From assembly GCA_947486575.1 (NCBI GenBank), contig CANKUB010000013.1:1-58532 (forward strand): a DNA stretch of 58,532 nucleotides. The letters are read 5' to 3'. Positions 30,871 through 53,704 of this stretch are shown here, piece by piece (position 1 is the stretch's first letter; each line of letters starts with the position of its first letter). The stretch is from Betaproteobacteria bacterium. GTDB taxonomy: Bacteria; Pseudomonadota; Gammaproteobacteria; Burkholderiales; SG8-41. Under the pieces are notes generated by a model. The model had not been told where the DNA came from, did not search any database, and saw nothing but the letters and a program-made list of their open reading frames with translations. The translations under genes and the position numbers were made by a program.

Positions 30871-31371
30871 TTACAATTTCCCCAACACATACTCCGCCGA
30901 GCTTACGTCATACTGCCCCGGCTTTTCGAGGTGAAACTGTTTCACCACGCCATTCTCAATCAACATGGCGTAACGCTGACCGCGTATACCCATGCCACGC
31001 GCAGTGAGGTCCTGGTCTACGCCCATGGCTTTAGTGAGCTGCGCGTTGCCGTCGGCCATCATGCGCACTTTGCCTTGTGCCTGGCATTCGCGGCCCCACG
31101 CGGACATGGTCGGTGCATCGTTGACTGACACGCACCACACTTCGTCAATGCCTTTGGCTTTGATTTTGTCGATTGCCTGCACGAAACCGGGCAGGTGACG
31201 CTGCGTTCAAGTCTTGGTAAAGGCTGCGGGCACACCAAACAGCACAATGCGTTTGCCGACTGTGGCCTGCTCAATATCGATTTCATTGGCGCCAAGTGAA
31301 CAGGTGTTTTCCCATTCACCAGCGAGTTCCCACAGCTTGCCGCCGGGGAGGTTGTCGCCTGTCTTGATCAT
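30871..31371 (-). CDS. Prx5-type peroxiredoxin, probable selenoprotein (Sec55)
   Basis: A 166-residue peroxiredoxin if the in-frame TGA at 31207-31209 is read through. The frame is continuous on both sides: VPAAFTKT, TGA, TQRHLPGFVQAI. Cys-containing relatives have VPGAFTPTC followed by HxPGY, so the TGA replaces the peroxidatic cysteine exactly. Other family marks are intact: VWCVSVNDAPTMSAWG, VRMMADGNAQLTKAMG, LTARGMGIRGQRYAM. AAGGAG lies 6 bases before the ATG at 31371. A hairpin with a GGU loop follows the TGA (see the SECIS entry). It should reduce peroxides in the cytoplasm. The alternative is a nonsense mutation or assembly error at that one codon. Confidence 0.85.
31176..31209 (-). 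promoter_or_regulatory. Candidate bacterial SECIS element in the peroxiredoxin gene
   Basis: Numbering from U1 of the UGA: bases 15-19 (CCUGC) pair with 30-34 (GCAGG), there is one C-U mismatch, C21 pairs with G28, and the loop 22-27 is GGUUUC. The loop GGU occupies bases 22-24, as in the E. coli fdhF element, where G23 and U24 are required by SelB. Confidence 0.7.
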
Positions 31372-31506
31372 GTGTGTCTCCTTGGATTTCATCAGTACTG
31401 CCGTGATAGTATAACTCTCGATGCAGTCAATTTACGCATTCAATACAGTTGGTGCCGCCCCTTGCAGCCGCAAGCCGTGGAGGCGATTCATCGAAAGGGA
31501 ATGATC

Positions 31507-53257: not shown

Positions 53258-53704
53258 ATGGCTTCCCCTGAGACCCGCACCTACTCCGTAGGCGCAAGCT
53301 CGACTGACACGCACGGTCGCGTTATGTGCAGCGCGCGCAATCATCACTTCATCGTCGATGGCCCGGTACAAAACGGCGCCCCCGGTGAAGCGGTAACCCC
53401 TGCCGAGTTATTTCTAACCGGCATCGCCGCTTGCGGCGTAGAGTTGGTGCAAGCCATTGCCAAGATCGAAGCCACGCCACTGCAAAGTATTCATGTCGAC
53501 ATCTCCGGCACACTGGATCGTTCCAACCCCGTGCGCACGGATGTCAGCGTCTTCAATGCGGTTCATATTCATTTTCATCTGACAGGTGTCAGCGCCGTGC
53601 AGGGCAGCGCGCTCATAGATCGCTTTAAAGGAAGGTGACCGCTTTATGGCAGCGTCGCGGTCGCGACGCCAGATGTTAAGGTCAGCGTCACCACTACAAG
53701 TTAG
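53258..53704 (+). CDS. OsmC-family peroxidase, probable selenoprotein (Sec127)
   Basis: A 148-residue OsmC protein if the in-frame TGA at 53636-53638 is read through. The first catalytic cysteine is present in FLTGIAACGVELVQAIAKIE. The second falls at the TGA: ALIDRFKGR, TGA, PLYGSVAVATPDVKVSV, where relatives have a cysteine followed by PxY/PV. After the TGA, 21 codons of family-like sequence end at the TAG at 53702-53704. A perfect hairpin with loop GGUC follows the TGA. AAGGAG precedes the ATG. Expected function: thiol/selenol-dependent reduction of organic hydroperoxides. If the TGA is a stop, the product is truncated by 22 residues and lacks a catalytic residue. Confidence 0.87.
53636..53669 (+). 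promoter_or_regulatory. Candidate bacterial SECIS element in the osmC-like gene
   Basis: Numbering from U1 of the UGA: bases 17-23 (GCGUCGC) pair perfectly with 28-34 (GCGACGC), leaving the loop GGUC at 24-27. The same GGU(C) loop is used by the E. coli fdhF element, there two bases closer to the UGA. Confidence 0.75.

Follow-up and report, generated by a model that had tools for sequence, protein, structure and literature searches.

The OsmC/Ohr-like gene at 53258..53701 (+) of the window, i.e., the whole 58,532-nucleotide stretch of DNA that was analysed, very probably encodes a selenoprotein with a redox role, in which UGA codon 127 is translated as selenocysteine (Sec). What is new is the OsmC subfamily with Sec at the second catalytic site, which was previously unlisted; the UxxT form is already catalogued. 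Comparison among relatives supports the predicted recoding of the UGA codon, the hairpin that follows it, the invariance of both redox positions, and the fold. The gene begins with the ATG at 53258, and its features are as follows.

53258..53701, + strand: OsmC/Ohr-like selenoprotein gene (predicted), 148 codons with UGA as codon 127, assigned from homologues and fold.
53432..53434, + strand: Cys59, the first catalytic position, at column 73 of the joint alignment and invariant across the 46 homologues aligned.
53636..53638, + strand: in-frame TGA, residue 127, the second catalytic position within the RUPLY motif (column 147 of the joint alignment), assigned from 47 distinct full-length TGA genes and from TGC/TGT in 4.
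53639..53701, + strand: conserved C-terminal tail PLYGSVAVATPDV..., forming the final helix and strand, from the homologue alignment and the predicted fold.
53652..53669, + strand: putative SECIS hairpin GCGUCGC-GGUC-GCGACGC within the coding tail, from covariation in 45–48 distinct sequences.
53652-53658, 53659-53662, and 53663-53669, + strand: the hairpin parts GCGUCGC, loop GGUC, and GCGACGC, respectively.
53659:53662, + strand: apical G-C pair of the hairpin, with the GU inside unpaired.
53702-53704, + strand: TAG stop codon ending the gene, after 21 further codons beyond the TGA.

A scan across genomes recovered 51 loci, of which two end at contig ends and 49 are complete; codon 127 is TGA in 45 of these 49 and TGC or TGT in the other four, which gives the Sec/Cys pair that the preliminary description had proposed to look for at residue 127. 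Merging of the searches gave 47 distinct full-length UGA genes, distributed over at least six phyla (Pseudomonadota, Acidobacteriota, Chloroflexota, Gemmatimonadota, Actinomycetota, and Myxococcota), and the C-terminal tail is kept in all 47. Within the window's own GTDB family, TGA at codon 127 is accompanied by the tail PLYGSVAVATPDV in 19/19 near-full-length matches. The in-frame UGA thus has conserved coding sequence on both sides; variation within the tail falls mostly at third codon positions, and the homologues terminate about 21 codons past the TGA with a stop codon that varies. The 21 codons of family sequence that had been read beyond the TGA are therefore retained throughout the distinct genes, and relatives that end at the TGA with no conservation downstream, an outcome that would have spoken against recoding, were not seen. 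Among the aligned homologues, Cys59 and residue 127 (Sec or Cys) are invariant, and the region around Sec127 is among the best-conserved parts of the protein in the 46-homologue alignment.

The four homologues with Cys at the UGA codon (L092, L097, L098, and L101) share about 48–53% identity with the window protein and carry the motif RRCPLYG in the same place, with TGC/TGT where the window gene has TGA. In the tree, these four genes are nested inside the UGA genes and adjoin UGA genes of Gemmatimonadaceae (group support 98/96), and the distribution can be accounted for by one or two Sec/Cys changes; loss of Sec in the four Cys genes would be the simpler reading. A Burkholderiales OsmC protein with CPVY (L053) was also considered as a Cys relative and rejected, being too distant and outside the subfamily. 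One further locus (L035 in genome G072, around 1501-1584 on the minus strand) is a remnant, a decayed copy in which nothing but the C-terminal tail, with its TGA and an intact hairpin, is preserved.

The hairpin downstream of the TGA is a perfect 7-bp stem with the loop GGUC, beginning 13 nt past the TGA; the coordinates of the previously described stem are confirmed, and its distance is appropriate, as the apical GU lies within 1 nt of its position in the five other UGA genes examined in the genome (nt 22-23 after the UGA here, nt 21-22 in SelD and four OsmC-like UGA genes). When both window strands were scanned, 26 of 1907 TGA triplets had a GU-loop hairpin of at least 6 bp at such a distance, the other sites including 2115+, 46922+, 53754+, 48208-, and 32662-. 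An Rfam search of the window gave no match, and the single-sequence folding energy is only mildly unusual (z -1.57); in view of this weak folding signal, covariation was used instead. With pairs numbered from the first base after the UGA, such that the hairpin occupies nt 14-31, pairs 15-30, 16-29, 17-28, 18-27, 19-26, 20-25, and 21-24 are canonical in all of 48 distinct UGA tails, a set comprising the 47 genes and one fragment. Thus, seven of the eight hairpin pairs hold in every distinct gene, and five pairs change on both sides, among them pair 15-30, at which C-G is replaced by G-C in about half of the UGA tails, and pairs 18-27, 16-29, and 21-24. For 45 distinct rows of 51 nt, the paired share of cells is 95%, as compared with 82% in shuffles; both-side changes affect 55 cells, as compared with 21.6; and the covariation score reaches 0.375, whereas slid versions of the structure score no higher than 0.099. 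This strong covariation is what the preliminary description had proposed to look for in relatives; with a downstream hairpin, an apical GU, and covariation, the element has the features of a bacterial SECIS. Codons 134-135, which encode A134 and V135, are GCA-GTT (27) or GCG-GTC (20) and nothing else, a restriction by which the exposed GU stays enclosed by either an A-U or a G-C pair and which offers clear evolutionary evidence that such an apical pair with its exposed GU matters in a bacterial SECIS. The hairpin has decayed in three of the Cys genes (L097, L098, and L101), with loss of its apical part; L092 retains CUCGC-GGUC-GCGAG, a probable remnant.

The machinery for Sec insertion, which had been named as a check on the proposal, is present in the genome of the window: selA (C47:17391-18758), selB (C47:18804-20696), and the tRNA-Sec gene, i.e., selC (C47:21857-21947), form one cluster, and selD, itself containing a UGA, lies on C248. 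SelB or tRNA-Sec is found above cut-off in 45/47 genomes with the UGA gene; neither is seen in the remaining two, both of them MAGs, of which one is 72% complete and the other has no stated completeness. Within the GTDB family, SelB exceeds the cut-off in 66/74 genomes, so co-occurrence is uninformative at that level and an order-level sample was used, in which SelB occurs in 8/8 genomes with the UGA gene as compared with 103/399 overall (Fisher p 1.6e-5, a value that ignores kinship). The genome with L092 gave no match to SelB or tRNA-Sec, and the Myxococcota genomes with L097, L098, and L101 keep both; in these three, Sec is absent from the gene without loss of the machinery. As a separate observation, one MAG (G468, with locus L079) carries two selB and two tRNA-Sec genes, on C331 and C103.

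The protein belongs to the OsmC/Ohr superfamily by profile, by fold, and by its two redox-active positions, Cys59 and residue 127. The Pfam OsmC domain (PF02566) spans the TGA, covering residues 42-141 (6.7e-10; 39.7 bits against a cut-off of 27.5). An AlphaFold2 model built from 46 homologues reached a pLDDT of 88.6; it is a monomer in which the Gly-rich loop (36-43) is of low confidence. Foldseek and VIA-align matched the model to OsmC/Ohr chains with Z scores of 9–14, the best being 13.6 for 3cje; hydroperoxide resistance proteins are among the solved structures nearest to it. Like Ohr (TIGR03561; Xylella fastidiosa Ohr, PMC5962072), the window protein combines this fold with a helix-borne first Cys and a CP-type second site, and in Ohr alignments residue 127 stands first in the C-P motif that contains the second Cys; Ohr, however, has Cys at both sites, whereas the window protein would have the pair Cys59/Sec127. 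Furthermore, X. fastidiosa Ohr has the catalytic pair Arg19 and Glu51, whereas the column of the catalytic Glu of Ohr (N-P-E-Q-L-F) is occupied by Ala49 in the window protein and an invariant Glu50 stands one residue on; the active site is thus no plain copy of that of Ohr. No counterpart was assigned to the catalytic Arg of Ohr/OsmC, so that it is the fold and the cysteine pair that point to peroxidase activity, which by this analogy we regard as probable.

The described OsmC selenoprotein subfamily is of the UxxT type (PMC1088965, PMC2398784, PMC9312934, PMC13188914). Four genes of this type are present in the same genome, each scoring 153-163 bits against the UxxT model NF041052 and each containing a TGA, within GF-U-LLT or GA-U-LLT; these OsmC-like genes (L126-L128, genome G000), with putative first-site Sec and a GU-loop hairpin at a matching distance, are located as follows.

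C21:36172-36594: first-site OsmC-like UGA gene.
C21:38774-39190: first-site OsmC-like UGA gene.
C69:18369-18785: first-site OsmC-like UGA gene.
C244:2785-3207: first-site OsmC-like UGA gene.

These proteins resemble the window protein in their PF02566 fold, in having two redox positions of which one is Sec, and in a SECIS hairpin whose apical GU lies some 21 nt downstream of the UGA. However, UxxT proteins have Sec first (GF-U-LLT) and Cys second, whereas the window protein has Cys59 first and Sec127 second (R-U-PLY). In the joint MAFFT alignment, on which the site assignment is based together with the Ohr alignments, the Sec of the four UxxT proteins occupies the column of Cys59 and their Cys that of Sec127; an hhalign profile comparison with the same four proteins gave a meaningless alignment. 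By this assignment, the window protein and the UxxT subfamily are mirror images in the predicted placement of Sec. A 2026 review counts one domain with differing Sec positions as distinct subfamilies, and the 2026 inventory of 119 prokaryotic selenoprotein families and subfamilies holds a single PF02566 entry, UxxT; the second-site form is not in that inventory, and publication elsewhere or single GenBank Sec records are possible. The preliminary description was right that OsmC-like selenoproteins are known from metagenomic surveys, but those form a subfamily apart, in which Sec takes the opposite catalytic position, so the finding is newer than it had implied.

Within the window, the gene is preceded on its 5' side by two TctC-type receptors and followed on its 3' side by a short-chain dehydrogenase on the opposite strand. 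Across the 49 loci, no gene within about 5 kb proved to be a conserved neighbour, so the gene appears to stand alone. Recurrent neighbour clusters at these loci were rejected since they are antisense or other-frame ORFs overlying the OsmC-like gene itself, and no relatives on plasmids were found. Elsewhere in the window, a Redoxin/AhpC-TSA (Prx5-like) gene at 30871-31392 (-) has an in-frame TGA at 31209-31207 within FTKT-U-TQRH, a TxxU motif that matches that of known Sec peroxiredoxins; it is probably the other selenoperoxidase to which the preliminary description had alluded in calling the present gene the second of its genome. That count holds insofar as such a Prx-like UGA gene exists, but understates the number, as there are four first-site OsmC UGA genes besides.

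On the analogy with Ohr, the window protein is most likely a hydroperoxide reductase of the Sec/Cys type, with an intramolecular selenenylsulfide as intermediate. In this proposal, SelB and Sec-tRNA(Sec) would decode UGA codon 127 under the direction of the SECIS hairpin located nt 14-31 downstream. Cys59, on the central helix, would reduce an organic hydroperoxide and become a sulfenic acid, as in Ohr; the selenolate of Sec127 would quickly condense with this sulfenic acid to give the Cys59-Sec127 selenenylsulfide, which a cellular dithiol (a lipoylated protein in Ohr) would then reduce. The resolving role of Sec127 is about evenly balanced. The fuller proposal, which falls just short of an even balance, is that of a widespread subfamily of Ohr-type peroxidases whose resolving position is held by Sec, in which selenium would speed closure of the selenenylsulfide and not attack on the peroxide, coexisting with four first-site proteins.

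The two roles may be reversed, with attack on the peroxide (or reduction of a disulfide) by Sec127 and resolution by Cys59; we consider this a real but somewhat less than even possibility. Sec usually serves as the attacking nucleophile in the selenoenzymes that have been characterised, and this behaviour makes Sec127 almost as likely a candidate for the attacking residue as Cys59 is by analogy with Ohr. The displacement of the catalytic Glu of Ohr from its usual column, which may deprive Cys59 of Ohr-like activation, and the strong conservation of the tail around Sec127 point the same way, whereas the second Cys of X. fastidiosa Ohr is the resolving Cys (PMC5962072) and the known OsmC selenoproteins have Sec at the first position. 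A less likely alternative is that the protein is no peroxidase and instead acts as a selenol/thiol oxidoreductase or a reductase of other substrates on the OsmC fold, comparable to YhfA-type members; the Arg-Glu pair of Ohr/OsmC without an assigned match in the Ohr alignments and the lack of a conserved neighbourhood at the 49 loci that points to a pathway would agree with this, but both redox-active positions are invariant and hydroperoxide resistance proteins are among the nearest solved structures.

The reading of UGA as Sec has itself to be weighed against a protein of 126 residues that truly ends at the TGA, the downstream conservation being due to, e.g., an overlapping element or a terminator. 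In its normal role, TGA stops translation, and conventional ORF calling does end the gene at 53638, as had been anticipated; nevertheless, the downstream variation is coding in pattern, four relatives have Cys there and read on, the Pfam match extends past the TGA, as do the final helix and strand of the predicted fold, and the varying stop codon follows about 21 codons later, which leaves this explanation scarcely credible. Comparably improbable, if by a shade less, is that the gene is just another member of the known UxxT subfamily. The PF02566 domain is shared and there is a weak match to NF041052, but the score is 30.4 bits against a cut-off of 95, the column of the UxxT Sec holds Cys59-GVE with Sec at the opposite catalytic position, and the four true members lie in the same genome, such that membership is already contradicted by score and Sec position. 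Likewise, the Ohr model TIGR03561 gave 25.1 bits against a cut-off of 88.85, and no NCBIfam model reached its cut-off for the window protein. The selenoprotein reading, which the preliminary description had termed probable, is borne out by comparative evidence, i.e., the same TGA, tail, and covarying stem in 47 distinct genes.

The finding adds a selenoprotein subfamily that occurs in six phyla, in bacteria from soil, groundwater, and other environments. With standard gene callers, these second-site OsmC selenoproteins would be cut at codon 126, and a redox residue would be lost. Since second-site and first-site OsmC selenoproteins are encoded in one genome, they provide a natural pair with which the action of selenium can be compared between the two halves of a two-site redox enzyme; if Sec indeed occupies the resolving position, one fold in one genome would have selenium placed both ways.
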